From an uncultured Bacteroidales bacterium (GTDB lineage: Bacteria > Bacteroidota > Bacteroidia > Bacteroidales > P3): a stretch of DNA of 64,000 bases. Position numbers and translations under genes: made by a program. The notes under the pieces were generated by a model. It did no database searches, was not told where the DNA came from, and worked only from the letters and a program-made list of their open reading frames with translations. Location of the stretch: positions 1 to 64,000 of the forward strand of contig CAMHDJ010000004.1 of assembly GCA_946183915.1 (NCBI GenBank), given 5' to 3'. Positions 11,312 through 54,453 of this stretch are shown piece after piece. Positions within the stretch are counted from its first letter, which is position 1, and the number at the start of each line of letters is the position of its first letter.

Positions 11312-11405
11312 GCAGAGATGATGCAGAGGGGATGCCTAGATGATGCCTAGATGATGCCTGGATGATGCCTGGATGATGCCTAGATGATGCCTGGATGATG
11401 CCTGG
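11312..11405. repeat. 11-bp tandem array, GATGCCTGG family
   Basis: Leader GCAGAGATGATGCAGAGG followed by seven 11-bp units alternating AGATGATGCCT and GGATGATGCCT. Located in the 343-bp divergent gap between pqqD and pyrH; no gene is visible in that gap. Same family as 4566, 19346 and 41062. Confidence 0.85.
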
Positions 11406-11567
11406 AGGGTGGGGGCGCGGAGGACGGTCAAGCGGGTGATGCTGTGGGGGATAGGTGGAAAGGGAGCATTTTTTTCTTGCACGGGTGAAATATTTTTCCT
11501 ATTTTCGCATGGTTGAACACCGTTGGAAAAACGGTGCAACGATATGTGTGACAAAAAGTTAAACCGT

Positions 11568-19345: not shown

Positions 19346-19431
19346 CCAGGCATCATCCAGGCATCATCCAGGCATCAACTAGGCATCAACTAGGCATCAA
19401 CCATGCATCCCCTCTGCATCATCTCTGCATG
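19346..19431. repeat. 11-bp tandem array, GATGCCTGG family (inverted)
   Basis: On the minus strand the leader GCAGAGATGATGCAGAGG is followed by seven 11-bp units (GGTTGATGCCT/AGTTGATGCCT/GGATGATGCCT). Located in the 202-bp gap between the barrel gene and HsdR_N promoter. Confidence 0.85.
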
Positions 19432-24919: not shown

Positions 24920-25068
24920 TAAAATAATTTGCAATCCGCGAAATACTTTTTCGCCCCGAAGGCATAATTCTCCCAATCGAGGAAAATATTGCCGCCCAGC
25001 ACCCCGGTTGAACACCCTGCGACGAGGGTGGAGTCGACCCCTCCGAAATGCCCATGGTTCCTAGTCTT

Positions 25069-25108
25069 CTCCCTGATGACTCCCTGATGACTCCCTGATG
25101 ACTCTCTT
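25069..25108. repeat. 11-bp tandem array, CTCCCTGATGA family
   Basis: Three perfect CTCCCTGATGA units followed by CTCTCTTAA. Its reverse complement matches the array at 4-49 including the TTAAGAGAG leader. It lies in a 549-bp gap (24864-25412) in which no gene is visible. Confidence 0.85.
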
Positions 25109-25214
25109 AAAACCAGGGCAAAATCCTTGCCCTGTCAGCGTTTTGCGAGTTTTCCAGCATGGTTTGCACACTTCCGGAAGGCCAAACGTCTCGTTTAGAA
25201 CGGTTTAAATGTGC

Positions 25215-25240
25215 AAATTAGATCGTGCACGATCTAATTT
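25215..25240. promoter_or_regulatory. 26-bp perfect palindrome with AGATCGTGCACGATCT core
   Basis: A perfect dyad centred between 25227 and 25228; the 16-bp core AGATCGTGCACGATCT occurs again at 49526-49541 and, with three mismatches, at 49814-49829. It lies 140-165 bp upstream of the -7 box of the mannosyltransferase gene. It could be an operator for a dimeric regulator; on RNA it would form a hairpin followed by T6, so a terminator is the alternative. Confidence 0.55.
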
Positions 25241-25379
25241 TTTAACTTAATTTAGTATAATTTTCAGAAGCGGCGACCGTCGCTGTTATATACCTCGCTC
25301 GGCGGCGACCATTCCCGGCGTCTCTGACGAAAAATCGGTTTTTTTTTCGATTGTCCCCTCGCGAATTGTTTTTTTTGTG

Positions 25380-25387
25380 TATCTTTG
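25380..25387 (+). promoter_or_regulatory. -7 box for the polyprenol-mannose synthase gene
   Basis: TATCTTTG, with TTG about 20 bp upstream, 26 bp before the ATG at 25413. This box makes the earlier GTG at 25377 an unlikely start. Confidence 0.75.
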
Positions 25388-25412
25388 CAATTTGATTAAA
25401 AAGGTAAAAGTT

Positions 25413-26138
25413 ATGTCAGACACACTGGTTATCACGCCTACTTACAACGAGAAAGAGAACATCGAGGCCATCATCCGCAAGGTCTTTTCGCTCCCCAAGG
25501 AGTTCGATATGCTCATCGTCGAGGACAATTCGCCCGACGGCACGGCCGACATCGTCAAGCGACTGATGCAGGAATTCCCCGAGCGCCTGCACATCGTCGA
25601 GCGCAAGGGCAAGCTGGGCCTCGGCACCGCCTACCTGGACGGCATGCGCTGGGGCGCCGATCACGGCTACGACTACATGATCGAGATGGACGCCGACTTC
25701 AGCCACAACCCCGACGACCTCGTGCGCCTCTACGACGCCTGCTCGACGGGCAAGGGCGACGTGGTGGTCGGTTCGCGCTACGTCGACGGCAAGATCAGCG
25801 TGGTCAACTGGCCCATGACGCGCCTGCTGATGAGCTACTTTGCCTCGAAGTACGTCAAGTGCGTCACCGGCATGCGGGTGGCCGACGCCACGGCCGGCTT
25901 TGTCTGCTGGAGCCGCCGTGTGCTGGAGCGGATGAAGTTCGACAAGGTGAAGTTCGTAGGCTATGCCTTCCAGATCGAGATGAAGTATACCGCCACGCGC
26001 CTGGGCTTCAAGGTCTACGAGGTGCCCATCATCTTCACCGACCGCGTCCTCGGCACCTCGAAGATGAGCATGAAGATCTTTAAGGAGGCCTTCTTCGGGG
26101 TCTTCAACCTCAAGTTCCGCAACTGGAAGAACTACTGA
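25413..26138 (+). CDS. polyprenol monophosphomannose synthase (GT2)
   Basis: A 241-residue family-2 glycosyltransferase of the dolichyl/polyprenyl-phosphate mannose synthase kind, which moves mannose from GDP-mannose to a lipid carrier. Motifs: VITPTYNEKENI, MLIVEDNSPDGTAD, the metal-binding EMDADFSHNP, and AFQIEMKYTATRLGFKVYEVPI. It has no C-terminal membrane helices, like the short form. Its stop is followed by a GxxExxY cassette. Confidence 0.92.
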   Translation: MSDTLVITPTYNEKENIEAIIRKVFSLPKEFDMLIVEDNSPDGTADIVKRLMQEFPERLHIVERKGKLGLGTAYLDGMRWGADHGYDYMIEMDADFSHNPDDLVRLYDACSTGKGDVVVGSRYVDGKISVVNWPMTRLLMSYFASKYVKCVTGMRVADATAGFVCWSRRVLERMKFDKVKFVGYAFQIEMKYTATRLGFKVYEVPIIFTDRVLGTSKMSMKIFKEAFFGVFNLKFRNWKNY

Positions 26139-26184
26139 TCTCACTCTCCGAGGAACCTTTAGCTCCTTGCCGCTGGCGCGGCAG

Positions 26185-26209
26185 AAATCTCGTAAATCTT
26201 GTAAATTAT
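26185..26209. repeat. left arm of inverted repeat around GxxExxY gene
   Basis: This 25-bp arm contains 9-bp-spaced AAATCTCGT/AAATCTTGT/AAATTAT units and reaches into the ATG of the GxxExxY gene. Its reverse complement matches 26626-26650 at 23 of 25 positions. Confidence 0.9.
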
Positions 26210-26609
26210 GCTGACGCAGCAAGAAATGTATGGTTTGATGTATGAGGTCCGTGGTGCGGCTATGGAAGTGTATAACCACTTCGGACCGGGATTGTTGGAG
26301 TCGGTGTATGAGAAGGCGATGATTCAGGAGTTGGTTTTGCGAGGGTTGCAGGTTGTATCTCAAGCACCTGTCTCCATTATGTACAAAGGTGCTTCTATAG
26401 GAGACGATTTGCGCTTGGATCTACTTGTCGAGAATGAACTGATTGTCGAGCTGAAGTCGGTGGAGGAAATAAAAGACGTTCATTATAAACAGTTAAGGAC
26501 ATATTTGAAACTGCTTGACAAGCCGGAAGGATTGCTGATAAACTTTGGGGAGTATGATTTGAAAAAGGGAATGAGAAGAGTAACGCTAAACGAATATAGG
26601 ACTGCGTAG
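26208..26609 (+). CDS. GxxExxY family protein
   Basis: A 133-residue small protein with the family signature GPGLLESVYEKAM (GxxExxY), EVYNHFGPGL before it, and KGASIGDDLRLDLLVENELIVELKSVEEI, whose D...ELK pattern resembles a PD-(D/E)XK nuclease core. Function is unknown; the family is scattered in Bacteroidota and others. It is AT-richer than its neighbours and is enclosed by a near-perfect 25-bp inverted repeat, so it looks like an inserted cassette between the mannosyltransferase and the peptidase genes. Confidence 0.88.
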   Translation: MLTQQEMYGLMYEVRGAAMEVYNHFGPGLLESVYEKAMIQELVLRGLQVVSQAPVSIMYKGASIGDDLRLDLLVENELIVELKSVEEIKDVHYKQLRTYLKLLDKPEGLLINFGEYDLKKGMRRVTLNEYRTA

Positions 26610-26625
26610 CTTCCCGCGAAGCGGA

Positions 26626-26650
26626 ATAATTTACAAGATTTACAGGATTT
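26626..26650. repeat. right arm of inverted repeat around GxxExxY gene
   Basis: The partner of 26185-26209. Past it, CGCGAGCGAAGCGAGCAGGAG continues to show weak inverted similarity to the sequence before the left arm. Confidence 0.9.
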
Positions 26651-26709
26651 CGCGAGCGAAGCGAGCAGGAGAAAAGAATAAAGATTAATAGAGATTAACA
26701 GAGAAAAAA

Positions 26710-28698
26710 ATGAAGAAGATACTTTTGACACTGGCGGTGCTGCTGATGGCGGGCGCCGCGTTTGCACAAGGCAAGCTGCTCGAGTGGGACCAGCTGATGG
26801 ACCGCAACCTGTATCCACAGCGCGAGGCGATGAGCTTCATCTTCGCCCCCGACGGCAAGACGGTCACCTACTACAAGGCTGGCGAGGCCTACGGCTTCGA
26901 CGGCAAGAAGGAGTTTAAGCTCACCGAGGCCCAGCAGGACCTCCGCAAACCCCGCAACAATGACCCCAAACTGGAGGAGCGCGTGGAGAAAAAGGAAGGC
27001 AACCTCTATGTCGACGGCAAGCTGGTGGAGCGCGGCGACGGCTACAATGTCGTCCTCGGCGAGAGTGTGCACCGCAACGAGTTCGGCATCAACGGCGGCC
27101 TCTTCTGGTCGCCTAAGCAGTCGCGCCTGGCCTTCTACCGCATGGACCAGAGCATGGTGGTGGACTATCCGCTGGTGAACACCAAGGCCCGCGAGGCCGA
27201 GGTGATGCCCATCAAGTACCCCATGGCCGGCATGCAGAGCCACTGGGTGACGGTGGGGGTCTACGAGCCTGCCACCGGGAAGCTCGTCTACCTCAACACC
27301 GCCCGCGACACCTCCGTCCACGAGCGCGAGATGTACCTCACCAACGTGGCCTGGAGCCCCGACGAGAAGTCGGTCTACATTGCCAAGGTGAACCGCGAAC
27401 AGAACCACATGTGGCTTGAGCAGTACGATGCCGCTACGGGCGCTTTCGTGAAGGTCCTCTTCGAGGAGACCAACCCCCGCTACGTAGAGCCCTGCGAGCC
27501 CATGATTTTCACCCCCAAGGGCGACCAGTTCCTCTGGTTTTCGATGCGCGACGGCTACAAGCATCTCTATCTCTACAACCTCGACGGTAGCCTGGTGAAG
27601 CAGGTGACCAAGGGCGAGTATGAGGTCGAAGGCTTCATCCAGTTCGACAAGAAGGGCGAAAACATCTTCGTCTACGCCAACAAGGACAACCTTGCCGGTC
27701 GCGACGCCTACCGCGTGAACCTCAAGAAGGGTACCATGGAGTGCCTCACCATGCAGGAGAACGGTCTGCACGGCACCCACAGCGTGGTGATTAACGAGGC
27801 GGGTACCATGTGGGTCGATGTGTGGAGCAGTGTCCAGGTGCCCCTGCGTGCCGACCTGCGCGATTGGAAGCATAAGGATCCCGTCAAGACCTTCTATGAG
27901 GCTAAGAATCCCCTGGAAGGCTACGCCATGCCCGACATTACCCTCGGCACCATCAAGGCTGCTGACGGCAAGACCGACCTCTACTACCGCCTTATTACCC
28001 CTCCCAATATGGAGAAGAGCAAGAAGTACCCCACGCTGGTCTATGTCTATGGCGGCCCGCACTCGCAGCTGGTCACCGACAGCTGGCTGGGAGGCGGAAA
28101 CCTCTACTTCCTCCGCCTCGCCCAGCAGGGCTATGTGGTCTTCACCCTCGACAACCGCGGCACCGACAACCGTGGCTTCGAGTTCGAGAGCTGCACGCAC
28201 CGCCGCCTTGGCGAGATCGAGTTGGCCGACCAGATGGAGGGTGTCAAGTTCCTGCAGTCGCTGCCTTACGTCGACAAGGACCGCATGGGCGTGGAGGGCT
28301 GGAGCTTCGGCGGCTTCATGACCATCACCATGAAGCTGGCTCATCCCGAGGTCTTCAAGGTGGGCTGCGCCGGTGGTCCCGTTATCGACTGGAAGTGGTA
28401 CGAGATCATGTACGGTGAGCGCTACATGGACACCCCGCAGGAGAACCCCGAGGGCTACGAGGCCACCAGCCTGCTGAACAAGGCCAAGAACCTCGAAGGC
28501 CGCCTGCTCGTCATCCAGGGCGCCGAAGACAACACCGTTGTGCCGCAGCACAGCACCGAGTTCATCGAGCGCTGCATCAACAACTTCAAGCAGGTCGACT
28601 ACTTCGCCTACCCCCACCACGAGCACAATGTCCTTGGCCGCGAACGCCTCCACCTCTACCAAAAGATGTTCCAGTACTACGAGGACTTCCTGAAATAA
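26710..28698 (+). CDS. S9 family prolyl dipeptidyl peptidase (DPP-IV type)
   Basis: A 662-residue exported serine peptidase that removes X-Pro or X-Ala dipeptides from peptide N-termini. Signal peptide MKKILLTLAVLLMAGAAFAQ; residues 30-430 form the beta-propeller (DPP_IV N-terminal domain) and the C-terminal 220 residues the alpha/beta-hydrolase with Ser532 in GWSFGG, Asp607 in GAEDNTV and His639 in HHEHNV. GWSFGG replaces the common GWSYGG. It is somewhat shorter than typical Bacteroides DPP-IV. Role: peptide use in the periplasm. Confidence 0.92.
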   Translation: MKKILLTLAVLLMAGAAFAQGKLLEWDQLMDRNLYPQREAMSFIFAPDGKTVTYYKAGEAYGFDGKKEFKLTEAQQDLRKPRNNDPKLEERVEKKEGNLYVDGKLVERGDGYNVVLGESVHRNEFGINGGLFWSPKQSRLAFYRMDQSMVVDYPLVNTKAREAEVMPIKYPMAGMQSHWVTVGVYEPATGKLVYLNTARDTSVHEREMYLTNVAWSPDEKSVYIAKVNREQNHMWLEQYDAATGAFVKVLFEETNPRYVEPCEPMIFTPKGDQFLWFSMRDGYKHLYLYNLDGSLVKQVTKGEYEVEGFIQFDKKGENIFVYANKDNLAGRDAYRVNLKKGTMECLTMQENGLHGTHSVVINEAGTMWVDVWSSVQVPLRADLRDWKHKDPVKTFYEAKNPLEGYAMPDITLGTIKAADGKTDLYYRLITPPNMEKSKKYPTLVYVYGGPHSQLVTDSWLGGGNLYFLRLAQQGYVVFTLDNRGTDNRGFEFESCTHRRLGEIELADQMEGVKFLQSLPYVDKDRMGVEGWSFGGFMTITMKLAHPEVFKVGCAGGPVIDWKWYEIMYGERYMDTPQENPEGYEATSLLNKAKNLEGRLLVIQGAEDNTVVPQHSTEFIERCINNFKQVDYFAYPHHEHNVLGRERLHLYQKMFQYYEDFLK

Positions 28699-32242: not shown

Positions 32243-32269
32243 GGTTCGGTTGCCTGTCCGGTCCGGGTA

Positions 32270-32379
32270 GTGCTAGGGTAGCGCTAGGGTAAGCCTAGGG
32301 TAATTCTAGGGTAACTATAGGATGACTCCCTGATAACACCCTGATAACACTCTGATGACGCCCTGATGCGGCCCTGATG
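32270..32379. repeat. composite 11-bp array of ten units
   Basis: Ten consecutive units of exactly 11 bp: four of the type nnnCTAGGGTA, a transitional ACTATAGGATG, then five of the type ACnCCCTGATn related to the 4-49 and 25069 arrays. The whole gap 32077-32453 contains no gene; besides this it holds the hairpin at 32199. Confidence 0.9.
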
Positions 32380-41061: not shown

Positions 41062-41185
41062 GTCATCCAGGCATCATCCAGGCATCATCTAGGCATCAAC
41101 TAGGCATCAACTAGGCATCAACTAGGCATCAACTAGGCATCAACTAGGCATCCTCCAAGCATCCCCTCTGCATCATCTCTGCATG
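41062..41185. repeat. 11-bp tandem array, GATGCCTGG family (inverted, longest copy)
   Basis: On the minus strand the leader GCAGAGATGATGCAGAGG is followed by about nine to ten 11-bp units, mostly AGTTGATGCCT. It occupies much of the 410-bp divergent gap between the acyltransferase and the lipoprotein gene, in which no ORF with coding character is seen. Confidence 0.9.
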
Positions 41186-44950: not shown

Positions 44951-45003
44951 AGTGAGAGAAGTGAGGGAAGTGAAAGAAGTGAAAGAAGTGAAAGAAGTGA
45001 AAG
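44951..45003. repeat. 9-bp tandem repeat AGTGAAAGA, left of four-helix-bundle gene
   Basis: Six units: AGTGAGAGA, AGTGAGGGA and four AGTGAAAGA, starting 1-2 bp after the serS stop. Complementary units in inverted order lie at 45493-45528, on the other side of the gene at 45040. Confidence 0.9.
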
Positions 45004-45039
45004 ACGATAGCGGTTTCTCTCACATATACTAAGAAAAAT

Positions 45040-45432
45040 ATGGATGCCAGATATGGTTTTCAACGGGTAGTGGCGTGGCAAAAAGCGCATGCTTTTGTAG
45101 TGCTTGTCTACAAAGTCACTCGAACATTCCCTGACGACGAACGATTTGGACTGACATCTCAGTTCAGACGAGCAGCGGTTTCGATAGAAGCAAATATTGC
45201 TGAGGGTTACAAGAAGATTAGCAAGGCCGACAAGTTGCGCTTCTATAATATATCGCAAGGCAGTCTTGAAGAATGCAGGAATTATGTTATCCTTTCATAC
45301 GATCTAAACTATATAGACGAAAGATTGTTTGACCAATTATGTGACGCGTTGGAGGATGCCAGCCGGTTGATTAACGCCTATTGTGAAAGTATTGTAAGAG
45401 ATGTGGCGATGAGGAACGATGATTTAAAGTGA
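45040..45432 (+). CDS. four helix bundle protein (23S rRNA intervening-sequence ORF family)
   Basis: A 130-residue helical protein of the four-helix-bundle/S23 family, with the usual QRVVAWQKAHAFVVLVY, FGLTSQFRRAAVSIEANIAEGY and FYNISQGSLEECRNYVILSYDL. Members were first seen as ORFs within intervening sequences of 23S rRNA genes, and the diversity-generating-retroelement protein Avd is related. It is AT-richer than its neighbours and flanked by 9-bp repeats in inverted orientation, so it looks like a cassette inserted between serS and fprA. Confidence 0.9.
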   Translation: MDARYGFQRVVAWQKAHAFVVLVYKVTRTFPDDERFGLTSQFRRAAVSIEANIAEGYKKISKADKLRFYNISQGSLEECRNYVILSYDLNYIDERLFDQLCDALEDASRLINAYCESIVRDVAMRNDDLK

Positions 45433-45492
45433 ATTAAAAAAACAATATAAAGAAGGAAAGAATGCATAAGACTAAGGAAGGCGAGGTATTGT

Positions 45493-45528
45493 CTTTCACT
45501 TCTGTCACTTCTCTCCCTTCTTTCAATT
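45493..45528. repeat. 9-bp tandem repeat TTTCACTTC, right of four-helix-bundle gene
   Basis: Four units TTTCACTTC, TGTCACTTC, TCTCCCTTC, TTTCAATTC, complementary to those at 44951. They end 10 bp before the fprA ATG. Confidence 0.9.
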
Positions 45529-45538
45529 CTTAAAGAAA

Positions 45539-49720: not shown

Positions 49721-49797
49721 CTTACTCAACTCCTACTCTTCGCCTACTCAACTCCTAGTCAACACCTACTCGAGTAGGAGAAGAGTAGGCGAAGATT
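49721..49797. repeat. seven 11-bp units with palindromic centre (CCTACTCnnnn family)
   Basis: Exactly 7 x 11 bp: four units beginning CCTACTC or CTTACTC, then CCTACTCGAGT and its complement-like AGGAGAAGAGT, AGGCGAAGATT; the centre CCTACTCGAGTAGG is a 14-bp palindrome. The same seven-unit layout is at 54565-54641. The 560-bp gap 49456-50017 has no gene. Confidence 0.9.
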
Positions 49798-50017: not shown

Positions 50018-50560
50018 ATGAGCAAAAAGTTTATCTGCCCCGTGTGCGGTTACGTCTACGAGGGCGACGAGATGCCTGAGAAGTGCCCCATCTGCGGCAA
50101 ACCGATGCAGGAAGTGAAAGAGGACATCAAGACCTGGGCCGCCGAGCACATCGTCGGCGTGGCCAAAGATGCCCCCGAAGATATCAAGATGGACCTCCGC
50201 GCCAACTTTGAGGGCGAGTGCAAGGAAGTCGGTATGTACCTGGCCATGGCCCGAGTGGCCCATCGCGAGGGCTACCCCGAAATTGGCCTCTATTGGGAGA
50301 AGGCTGCCTACGAGGAGGCTGAGCACGCCGCCAAGTTTGCCGAACTGCTGGGCGAGGTGTTGACCGACAGCACCAAAGAGAATCTGAAGATGCGTGTCGA
50401 CGCTGAGTACGGCGCCACCGCCGGCAAGACCGACCTGGCCAAGCGTGCCAAGGCCCTCAACCTCGACGCCATCCACGACACGGTCCACGAGATGGCACGC
50501 GACGAGGCCCGCCACGGCAAAGCTCTCGAAGGCCTGCTTAACCGCTACTTCAATAAGTGA
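50018..50560 (+). CDS. reverse rubrerythrin (NADH peroxidase component)
   Basis: A 180-residue protein with an N-terminal rubredoxin domain ([21 protein letters not shown]) and a C-terminal four-helix diiron domain ([34 protein letters not shown]). The domain order is the reverse of classical rubrerythrin. It reduces hydrogen peroxide. It completes the oxidative/NO stress block (FprA, Hrb, rubredoxin, ferritin). Confidence 0.93.
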
Positions 50561-50567
50561 GCAGTGG

Positions 50568-50674
50568 TAAGTGTTTAGTGTTTAGTGTGCTACGCAGAAT
50601 AATGGCGGCAACTAAACACTAAACACTGAACACTAAACACTGAACACTAAACACTAAACACTGAACACTGAACA
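50568..50674. repeat. palindromic heptamer element, ACTAAAC/ACTGAAC
   Basis: Left arm AGTGGTA-AGTGTTT-AGTGTTT-AGTGTGC; a loop of about 20 bp; right arm nine inverted heptamers ACTAAAC/ACTGAAC ending 2 bp before the lpxK ATG. It fills the rubrerythrin-lpxK gap. Confidence 0.92.
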
Positions 50675-50676
50675 CG

Positions 50677-51831
50677 ATGTCGTTCCGCACCACCATATCG
50701 TACATCCTGTGGCCACTCTCCATGTGGTACGCTGTCGGCGTGGCGGTGCGGAACCTTCTTTTCTCCCTGGGCATCAAGCGGCAGCAGGCGCCGCACATCA
50801 CCACCATCGGTGTGGGCAATCTGGCCACCGGCGGCACCGGCAAGACGCCGCACGTGGAGTACCTGCTCGAACTCTTCGGCGACCGCTACCGGACGGCCAT
50901 GCTCAGCCGGGGCTACCGCCGGCGCAGCAAGGGCTTCGTGCTCGACGACGGGCGCCACGACGCCGCCTTGCTGGGCGACGAGCCCGCCATGATGGCCCGC
51001 AAGTACCCGCAGGTGCAGGTGGCCGTGTGCGAGAAGCGCGTCGAGGGAGTCCGCCGGCTGATGGCCCTGTCGGAGCCGCCGCTGCCGTCGGACGAGTCTG
51101 TCCCGTCTGACTCGTCGGACGTGTCTGACGCCGCCGACCAGCCCGCCGCCGAGCCCATCCAGCTGGTCATCCTCGACGATGTCTTCCAGCATCGGCAGAT
51201 CAAGCCCAACATCAACATCCTCCTCACCGAGTACCAGCACCCCTACTTCCGCGACCGCATCCTGCCCTACGGCAACCTGCGCGAGTTCCGCTCGGCTCGG
51301 CGCTATGCCGGCATCGTGATCGTCACCAAGTGCCCCGCGCGGCTCAACCCCGTCGACAAGCACAATATCATCCACGACTTGCGGCTGCAGAACTATCAAA
51401 AGGTCTTCTTCTCCTACTTCCAGTATGGCGCCCTGCGCACCCTCGACGGGCAGGCGTCCGACGTCGACCTGCGGCGGATGGAGCAGGTGCTCGTCGTCAC
51501 CGGCATCGCGCACCCCGAGCCGATGCTCGACGAGGTGCGGCGTCACTGCAAGGCACAGCATCTGGCCTTCCCCGACCACCACGACTACACCCGGCGCGAC
51601 GTGGCGCGCATCGCGGACGCTTTTGATGCCCTGCCGGGCCAGCGCAAGGCCATCGTCACCACCGAGAAGGACGCCGTGCGCCTGCGCGGCCTCGCCGACC
51701 GGCTGCCTGTCTACGTGCTGCCCGTCCGCGTGGCCTTCCACAAGGACGGCGACCTCGACTTCGACCAACTCGTCGAAGCCTCAGTCCGCGAAAACATCTC
51801 TTTCCTTAGCAAGCTCAGCATCTGGAGCTGA
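50677..51831 (+). CDS. lpxK: tetraacyldisaccharide 4'-kinase
   Basis: A 384-residue lipid A kinase with the P-loop TIGVGNLATGGTGKTPHVEYL, SRGYRRRSKGFVLDDG and VILDDVFQHRQIKPN. Residues about 140-158 (LPSDESVPSDSSDVSDAADQ), encoded by 9-bp repeats at 51088-51138, are an unusual acidic/Ser insertion between the walker region and the LDD motif. Membrane-bound, makes lipid IV-A. Confidence 0.95.
   Translation: MSFRTTISYILWPLSMWYAVGVAVRNLLFSLGIKRQQAPHITTIGVGNLATGGTGKTPHVEYLLELFGDRYRTAMLSRGYRRRSKGFVLDDGRHDAALLGDEPAMMARKYPQVQVAVCEKRVEGVRRLMALSEPPLPSDESVPSDSSDVSDAADQPAAEPIQLVILDDVFQHRQIKPNINILLTEYQHPYFRDRILPYGNLREFRSARRYAGIVIVTKCPARLNPVDKHNIIHDLRLQNYQKVFFSYFQYGALRTLDGQASDVDLRRMEQVLVVTGIAHPEPMLDEVRRHCKAQHLAFPDHHDYTRRDVARIADAFDALPGQRKAIVTTEKDAVRLRGLADRLPVYVLPVRVAFHKDGDLDFDQLVEASVRENISFLSKLSIWS
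51088..51138. repeat. in-frame 9-bp repeat in lpxK
   Basis: Five to six 9-bp units GTCGGACGA, GTCTGTCCC, GTCTGACTC, GTCGGACGT, GTCTGACGC keep the frame and encode the SDES/SDSSDVSD stretch. Confidence 0.8.
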
Positions 51832-54271: not shown

Positions 54272-54343
54272 CATCTTTTTTCCATAACAAGCAAATTTTA
54301 ACCGCCGAATCGCTCGAATTTGACGAACAACCGCCCTGCGCCG

Positions 54344-54453
54344 CTTCGAGTAATCAGCCCTTCCCAACCTGCGTAGCTTCGAGTAATCAGCCCATTTCAA
54401 CCTGCGCAGCTTCGAGTAATTAGCCCTACCCAACCTGCGTAGCTTCGAGTCCT
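54344..54453. repeat. 33-bp (3 x 11) tandem repeat
   Basis: Three 33-bp units, each CTTCGAGTAAT + nAGCCCnnnnn + AACCTGCGnAG, i.e. three 11-bp modules, and a partial fourth. On the minus strand it reads as repeats of 11 residues (YSKLRRL..), but there is no sign that it is coding. It lies in the 450-bp gap between hisS and the DUF6266 gene. Confidence 0.9.

Follow-up and report, generated by a model that had tools for sequence, protein, structure and literature searches.

A GxxExxY gene between matched arrays of short words: a candidate small mobile DNA element in an uncultured Bacteroidales bacterium

A short ORF of the GxxExxY family, located between genes for a glycosyltransferase and a DPPIV peptidase of an uncultured Bacteroidales bacterium and not in rRNA, is abutted on both sides by arms that are inverted copies of each other. 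What kind of unit do the gene and its arms form, and does the arrangement recur elsewhere? A sequence-only reading of the window, by which we mean the whole 64,000-nucleotide stretch of DNA analysed here, had proposed that the ORF lives in the loop of a mobile RNA or DNA hairpin, similar to an intervening sequence inserted between protein genes. We examined the element itself, its protein, its relatives in other genomes and its gene-less copies, and weighed the explanations that could account for them.

Anatomy of the element and its protein

The features of the element are listed in Table 1 in their order along the DNA: CTCCT, a GC-rich hairpin, an arm of 9-nt period, the gene, the matching arm, a GC-rich block and AGGAG. 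The arms had been described as 25 bp long, matching at 23 of 25 positions and built of 9-bp units. All of this was confirmed, and the extended pair is complementary at 24 of 26 positions. The left arm consists of the tandem 9-nt words AAATCTCGT AAATCTTGT AAATT and the right arm of AAATCCTGT AAATCTTGT AAATT; the end of the left arm falls within the ATG of the ORF, as had been noticed. The repeat originally placed at 26185-26650 is therefore real, but the true bounds are wider, reaching from the CTCCT to the AGGAG motif. The gene has a GC content of 44% compared to 61% for the window, in agreement with the earlier description of it as AT-richer than its surroundings.

Table 1. Positions of the features discussed in the text, in window coordinates
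Feature	Position	Strand	Basis
Upstream neighbour, glycosyltransferase family 2; marker for the orthologous locus	25416-26138	+	
Whole element, CTCCT ... AGGAG, 509 bp; long imperfect hairpin, the gene forming its loop	26163-26671	+	sequence, ends of gene-less copies, fold
CTCCT terminal motif, inverted partner of AGGAG at 26667-26671	26163-26167	+	sequence; also ends gene-less copies
Left GC-rich hairpin TGCCGC-TGGC-GCGGCA	26168-26183	+	DNA fold -7.6 kcal/mol, z -2.7
Left arm, words of 9-nt period	26184-26209	+	inverted-repeat search, word count
GxxExxY gene, 133 aa, predicted Cas4/RecB-like PD-(D/E)XK nuclease	26208-26609	+	HMMs, conserved residues, model
Small inner hairpin CCGC-GAA-GCGG, immediately inside the right arm	26614-26624	+	read from sequence
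Right arm, the left arm inverted, 24/26	26626-26651	+	inverted-repeat search
Right GC-rich block CGCGAGCGAAGCGAGC	26651-26666	+	sequence; alone a weak hairpin, z -0.9
AGGAG terminal motif	26667-26671	+	sequence; ends of gene-less copies
Downstream neighbour, DPPIV/S9 peptidase	26710-28698	+	
S23 element, left 9-nt array (AGTGAAAGA)	44951-45004	+	
S23 / 23S_rRNA_IVP (PF05635) gene, in the loop of the second element	45040-45432	+	
S23 element, right inverted 9-nt array	45492-45531	+	
Gene-less inverted heptamer array (AGTGTTTAGTGTTTAGTG ... ACTAAACACTGAACACT), ACACTAA/ACACTGA words	50556-50676	+	DNA fold of 50550-50690, z -5.4

A 23-mer core of the arm, searched with up to 3 mismatches, occurred at exactly two sites in the window, in opposite orientation, with 0.00 sites expected from 100 dinucleotide shuffles. 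Inverted repeats matching at 24 or more of 26 positions, with arms at most 600 nt apart, numbered three in the 64 kb and none in five single-base shuffles. The other two are a box around an S23 gene (44984/45512) and a heptamer array (50562/50670). The S23 element as a whole (44951-45531) also lies between protein genes and has the same architecture as the GxxExxY element.

The whole unit folds as a single long hairpin whose loop holds the gene (RNA fold z -2.7). A perfect four-way junction was rejected, since both DNA and RNA folds favoured the one long hairpin and only the left GC-rich block formed a good hairpin on its own. A search of positions 25000-28000 against Rfam, a collection of RNA families, gave no relevant match.

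The ORF matched only two protein families, PF13366 (PDDEXK_3; 138.7 bits, cut-off 22) and TIGR04256 (136.9 bits, cut-off 35). In 24 of 24 GxxExxY sequences from several phyla, the residues G26, E31, Y34, D71, E81, K83, Q95 and Y99 were invariant; they cover the PD-(D/E)XK residues (D..ExK), the upstream motif glutamate E31 and QxxxY, a mark of the RecB/Cas4 group. The AlphaFold model of the protein had a mean pLDDT of 93. Its best Foldseek rows were SSO0001, which we take to be a Cas4, and lambda exonuclease, with an E-value of 0.004 and none at or below 0.001. Structure comparison gave a Z-score of 9.3 for 4ic1 (rmsd 4.8 over 103 residues) and Z below 8 for all other structures; VIA-align retrieved archaeal Holliday-junction resolvases and XisH at Z 5.6-7, which is too weak to be relied on. 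The PADLOC Cas4 profiles matched the protein weakly (E 0.0006), and a sequence search of solved structures yielded no match at E 1. The similarity scores are modest, and on this basis the GxxExxY protein models as a Cas4/RecB-like PD-(D/E)XK nuclease. The nuclease fold, formerly suggested by a D...ELK pattern, thus gains support from the family matches, the invariant catalytic residues and the predicted structure.

Among 21 gene pairs, the four that were not saturated had dN/dS ratios of 0.03-0.10 and, judged from these comparisons, the gene is under purifying selection. The family was present in 186 of 395 genomes sampled from the phylum. Within the genus it occurred in 43 of 59 genomes and was absent from 16, with 0 to 7 genes per genome and three in the source genome. 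Relatives were also seen on two phage records, in which the same virus is entered twice, and on eight plasmid records. No assigned function for GxxExxY was found in the literature searched, in which the family was mentioned as an entry of a virus gene table and in a comment on a mis-called cas4.

Inverted arms around GxxExxY genes in other genomes

To score the flanks, we took the best local alignment of the upstream flank with the reverse complement of the downstream flank and called a gene boxed at a score of at least 18. Two of the 51 putative window genes, those for GxxExxY and S23, reached this score, compared to 0 of the 49 others. In the genus, 102 hits comprised 96 distinct ones, 83 of which were full length with flanks, and 64 of these 83 genes were boxed. 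The controls gave 0/83 with a shuffled downstream flank, 14/83 in direct orientation and 26/415 with the downstream flank of another gene. Wider flanks raised the count to 68 of 83 genes, or 33 of 40 distinct contexts. By the flank test, 19 of the 83 genes in the genus, and about a quarter elsewhere, had no arms.

Neighbouring genes were compared directly at 23 named loci, 13 of them close relatives of the window gene. Fifteen of the 20 readable GxxExxY ORFs were boxed, as opposed to 1 of 73 neighbouring ORFs. The sole boxed control ORF was L105:357-1223, with a score of 24. RAYT genes of the genus served as a positive control, and 15 of 20 were boxed by the same test.

Outside the genus, 23 of 31 rows from other genera of the phylum were boxed (one frame-broken gene is entered twice in the 31), against 1 of 620 shuffles. 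Ten genomes from wider phyla were reached via loci titled Bacillota, Opitutaceae, Alphaproteobacteria, Gammaproteobacteria, Pedobacter, Granulicella, Phycisphaerae, Planctomycetaceae and Verrucomicrobia. They contributed 21 full-length places out of 26 listed, of which 15 were boxed, against 0 of 420 shuffles; the Granulicella and Gammaproteobacteria genes showed no inverted arms by the flank test. Relatives of the Opitutaceae genome gave 27 boxed rows of 32, against 0 of 640 shuffles, after two rows without an upstream flank had been dropped; several of the low-scoring rows are second fragments. Inverted flanks around most GxxExxY genes of relatives, as expected from the cassette idea, were thus found in the genus, the phylum and other phyla alike. 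For S23 genes in the phylum the count was 14 of 30, mostly with 7-nt words.

These counts bear on the notion of a mutational by-product, in which the gene families reside in array-rich intergenic DNA and the arms are made by slippage and palindrome-correcting template switches. Gene-less short-period arrays are indeed common in the window, which is rich in intergenic 7- and 11-nt arrays. However, boxing was confined to the two families among the window genes and nearly absent from the neighbouring ORFs, and the association with the same family recurs in several phyla. We consider this explanation very improbable.

Turnover of the cassette and its gene-less copies

If the gene and its arms form a mobile cassette, orthologous loci should vary in size, and they do. 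The interval between the glycosyltransferase and DPPIV genes was read in 50 genomes of the genus, and 26 were classified, the rest having no DPPIV neighbour or only a diverged one. Among these 26 were seven full cassettes, two internally deleted ones (L042 and L241, both with the two gene ends and the arms preserved), three gene-less remnants with outer ends (L050, L052 and L054), ten empty or nearly empty sites and four other short-period arrays, three inverted and one tandem. Nine of the empty sites had 1-5 nt between the genes, and one had 32 nt. A tree of the flanking genes requires at least six changes in the presence of the gene.

The cassette was also found in other surroundings. On the protein tree, clades with a single arm type were spread over unrelated sites. 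The ATTACTC-type clade, for example, occupied four context clusters whose neighbours differ and include a TonB-type receptor and an ABC transporter, the neighbours being named from a reading of their translations. Members of an ORF family of about 260 aa (L255, L256, L257, L260, L276) were intact in some genomes of the genus and interrupted by GxxExxY cassettes of another clade in others, and one genome (G048) carried both forms. In L254 the left cassette junction is clear, about 480 bp of the host ORF of this family have been replaced, and the right side shows rearrangement; a clean insertion point within the family was rejected for that reason. Filled sites at the glycosyltransferase-DPPIV locus had additional flanking bases, and neither there nor in the 260-aa ORF family was a clean empty/filled pair with a target-site duplication found.

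Two patterns for the word class of the window element retrieved 16 and 18 sites in the source genome, mostly away from the genes. The pattern of this class was present in 33 of 59 genomes of the genus, whereas the reversed control gave one hit in total. The gene-less elements that were read, 20 rows including several read from both strands, had loops mostly of 31-54 nt and the same CTCCT-hairpin ends as the window element; their conservation stops beyond CTCCT, some 22-30 nt away from the arm. Where a gene of the matching clade was present, genomes had a median of 6 sites, and where it was absent 0 (14 vs 45 genomes, p 0.0002, uncorrected for relatedness). After correction for relatedness, five independent pairs were left, of which 2.4 agreed and 0.1 disagreed, which is not significant. 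One genome (G054) had 32 arm sites, yet no full gene of that clade.

Further arrays were seen in the window. Arrays of 11-nt words lie at 11316-11406, 19346-19430, 25069-25104, 32265-32379 and 41063-41178, and three of them have common words of the GATGCCTGG/AGGCATCA type in both orientations. An inverted 11-nt array, CCTACTCAACT / GAGTAGGAGAA, occupies 49723-49795. At 54335-54450, a 33-nt unit (CCTGCGCAGCTTCGAGTAATC...) contains words as in the arms of ATTACTC-type GxxExxY cassettes of relatives, and this array is likely a gene-less relative of those cassettes.

The excess of gene-less hairpins with the same words over the three genes of the source genome would fit a homing process, in which a homing-type nuclease gene invades pre-existing gene-less arrays by cutting and gene conversion while the arrays spread by other means; the predicted Cas4/RecB-like fold would suit such an enzyme. 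At the orthologous site, however, the nine relatives with a gap of 1-5 nt contain no array at all, which implies that arms and gene come and go together, and the internally deleted copies are deletions of a filled form. Homing is thus an unlikely origin of the cassette.

Arm words, proposed mechanism and relation to known systems

The words differ between copies (AAATCTTGT, GACAACnnn, CGAATTACT, CACAGAGnn, CACGGATnn, CGCTAAAnn), and both arms of a copy share one word. A single Opitutaceae genome contained five boxed copies with five different words. A spacing of 9 was commonest in the genus (33 of 68 arms), spacings of 8-12 occurred in the wider phylum, and S23 arms mostly had 7 (16 of 24). 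Outside the class of the window element, many outer ends start with TTTTAAC, as judged by eye and not counted. Within the same word class, the arms of one copy differed from each other by 2.65 mismatches and swapped arms by 3.33 (20 distinct arm pairs, seven of them gene-bearing), a modest gain that 219 of 10000 permutations equalled. On the protein tree, the arm type changed 16 times compared to at least 32 times with shuffled labels, in a count that left out 11 of the 83 genes, which had no arms, and in which 'other' is a mixed class of 32. Physical linkage alone would make arms and protein clade agree, so that this result does not prove recognition of the arms by the protein.

Mismatches between the arms, read on the sense strand, were G-U rather than A-C in 115 vs 204 cases in the genus, 57 vs 47 in the phylum and 35 vs 31 for S23. 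As G-U showed no consistent excess over A-C, RNA-level selection on the arms was rejected. An RNA element resembling rRNA intervening sequences would have its hairpin work in the transcript, with RNase III as the cutting enzyme and the gene as a passenger. The shared architecture of S23 genes, including the copy in the window, and the folding of the transcript into a long hairpin are compatible with it. The mismatch pattern, the position outside rRNA and the many orthologous loci without a cassette all count against it and make it highly unlikely. The cassette in a hairpin loop, as proposed by the sequence-only reading, is supported and general, its mobility being putative; nothing was found in favour of the RNA version, and the best reading is that the element acts on DNA.

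We conclude that 26163-26671 is probably one copy of a small mobile DNA element similar to REPIN/RAYT systems, with the nuclease as its enzyme, whose movement and arm recognition we infer. Its two halves would be inverted copies of a composite end, made of CTCCT, the GC-rich hairpin and the array of 9-nt words, and its single gene would supply the nuclease. In single-stranded or extruded DNA, the arms could pair to form a hairpin or a cruciform. The nuclease may then recognise either the words repeated in its own arms or the point where these arms join, and cut there, and host repair or replication would subsequently copy or relocate the segment; from recognition onward, we infer every step. 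Internal deletions would give rise to hairpins without a gene, and the enzyme may mobilise these in trans, as RAYT transposases presumably do with REPINs. The words may drift by slippage inside an arm, and template switching across the hairpin would copy the new word to the partner arm, so that each copy would have its own word and matched arms.

REPIN/RAYT systems consist of inverted hairpin doublets, many of them gene-less and located between genes, and of a single-gene enzyme flanked by them, with repeat types specific to the enzyme, according to the available parts of two papers (PMC3116915, PMC3733652). The class of the window element likewise has gene-less inverted doublets dispersed between genes and an enzyme gene between inverted repeats. 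However, its enzyme is a predicted PD-(D/E)XK nuclease, whereas RAYT is a Y1/HUH transposase; its arms are arrays of copy-variable words of 7-11 nt, whereas REP is one tagged palindrome (GTAG/CGTC); and the GxxExxY gene seems often to relocate together with the rest of its element. The Y1 transposase genes of RAYT type in the genus (L343, L344, L345-L362) were seen to have classic REP palindromes as flanks, e.g., GCCCCGTAGGGGC.

A related possibility is that the nuclease gene, useful in defence or repair, travels in a MITE-like repeat whose mover is an unrelated transposase, for instance RAYT. The apparently strong purifying selection, the weak Cas4 matches in PADLOC and the occurrence of RAYTs in 40 of the 59 genomes of the genus would agree with such a passenger role. 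Yet the RAYTs of the genus are flanked by REP palindromes of their own that differ from the GxxExxY arms, and RAYT was judged unlikely as the mover of these arms for this reason. Moreover, the gene number varies from none to seven per genome, and the arms stay matched across phyla though the words change. A passenger role is rather improbable.

In rRNA intervening sequences, a stem-loop insert with complementary bounding sequence and sporadic distribution carries an S23 ORF in its loop, as described in the accessible portion of one study (PMC4990558); S23 is also known from CRISPR loci, according to the part available of another (PMC3936711). The short ORF in the loop, the complementary bounds and the sporadic distribution are common to both systems, and the earlier analogy to an intervening sequence between protein genes was apt, as the S23 family has the same architecture there, once in the window. 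The window element differs in that it lies outside rRNA and its ORF belongs to a nuclease family, S23 occurring only in the second window element. With MITEs, the element shares terminal inverted repeats and internally deleted non-autonomous copies; it differs by having no known transposase and no established target-site duplication. Since defining features of REPIN/RAYT systems and of intervening sequences were looked for and not found, we class the element as neither, and since no clean filled/empty pair showed an insertion signature, we do not file it as a MITE. We file it as a new variant of small inverted-repeat mobile elements. In the literature searched, which largely excludes subscription papers and preprints, no description of S23 or GxxExxY boxed in inverted arrays was found.

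Intergenic heptamers, e.g., TAACTGA, have been reported from Beggiatoaceae, Cyanobacteria and Bacteroidetes, their transfer mechanism not being evident to the author (PMC4679880). In the available parts of that article, direct repeats are treated as regulatory, and the terms S23, intervening sequence, four helix and endonuclease are not mentioned. The present arrays resemble these heptamers in being short-period, intergenic and patchy across phyla. As a tentative extension, which we hold possible but would not favour, a single class of minimal mobile elements might exist across phyla, in which a small protein (the Cas4/RecB-like nuclease or, in a sister group, S23) is both cargo and mover and reads its own short-period arm words, rewritten copy by copy. 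Such a class would be the hidden source of intergenic repeats of 7-11 nt in Bacteroidota, Verrucomicrobiota, Planctomycetota, Alphaproteobacteria and perhaps Cyanobacteria. The word length tracks the protein (9-10 nt with GxxExxY, mostly 7 nt with S23), as though every repeat were measured by its own protein.

The recurrence of the boxed arrangement at many genome sites and in several phyla suggests a small mobile element of a kind not yet described. Boxing by matched arrays gives the orphan family GxxExxY its first testable role, links S23, the protein of rRNA intervening sequences, to the same arrangement outside rRNA and offers a candidate source for short-period intergenic repeats that were described earlier without a mechanism. 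Should the nuclease indeed move the hairpins, they would have a small movement system whose enzyme lacks the transposase fold known from REPINs.
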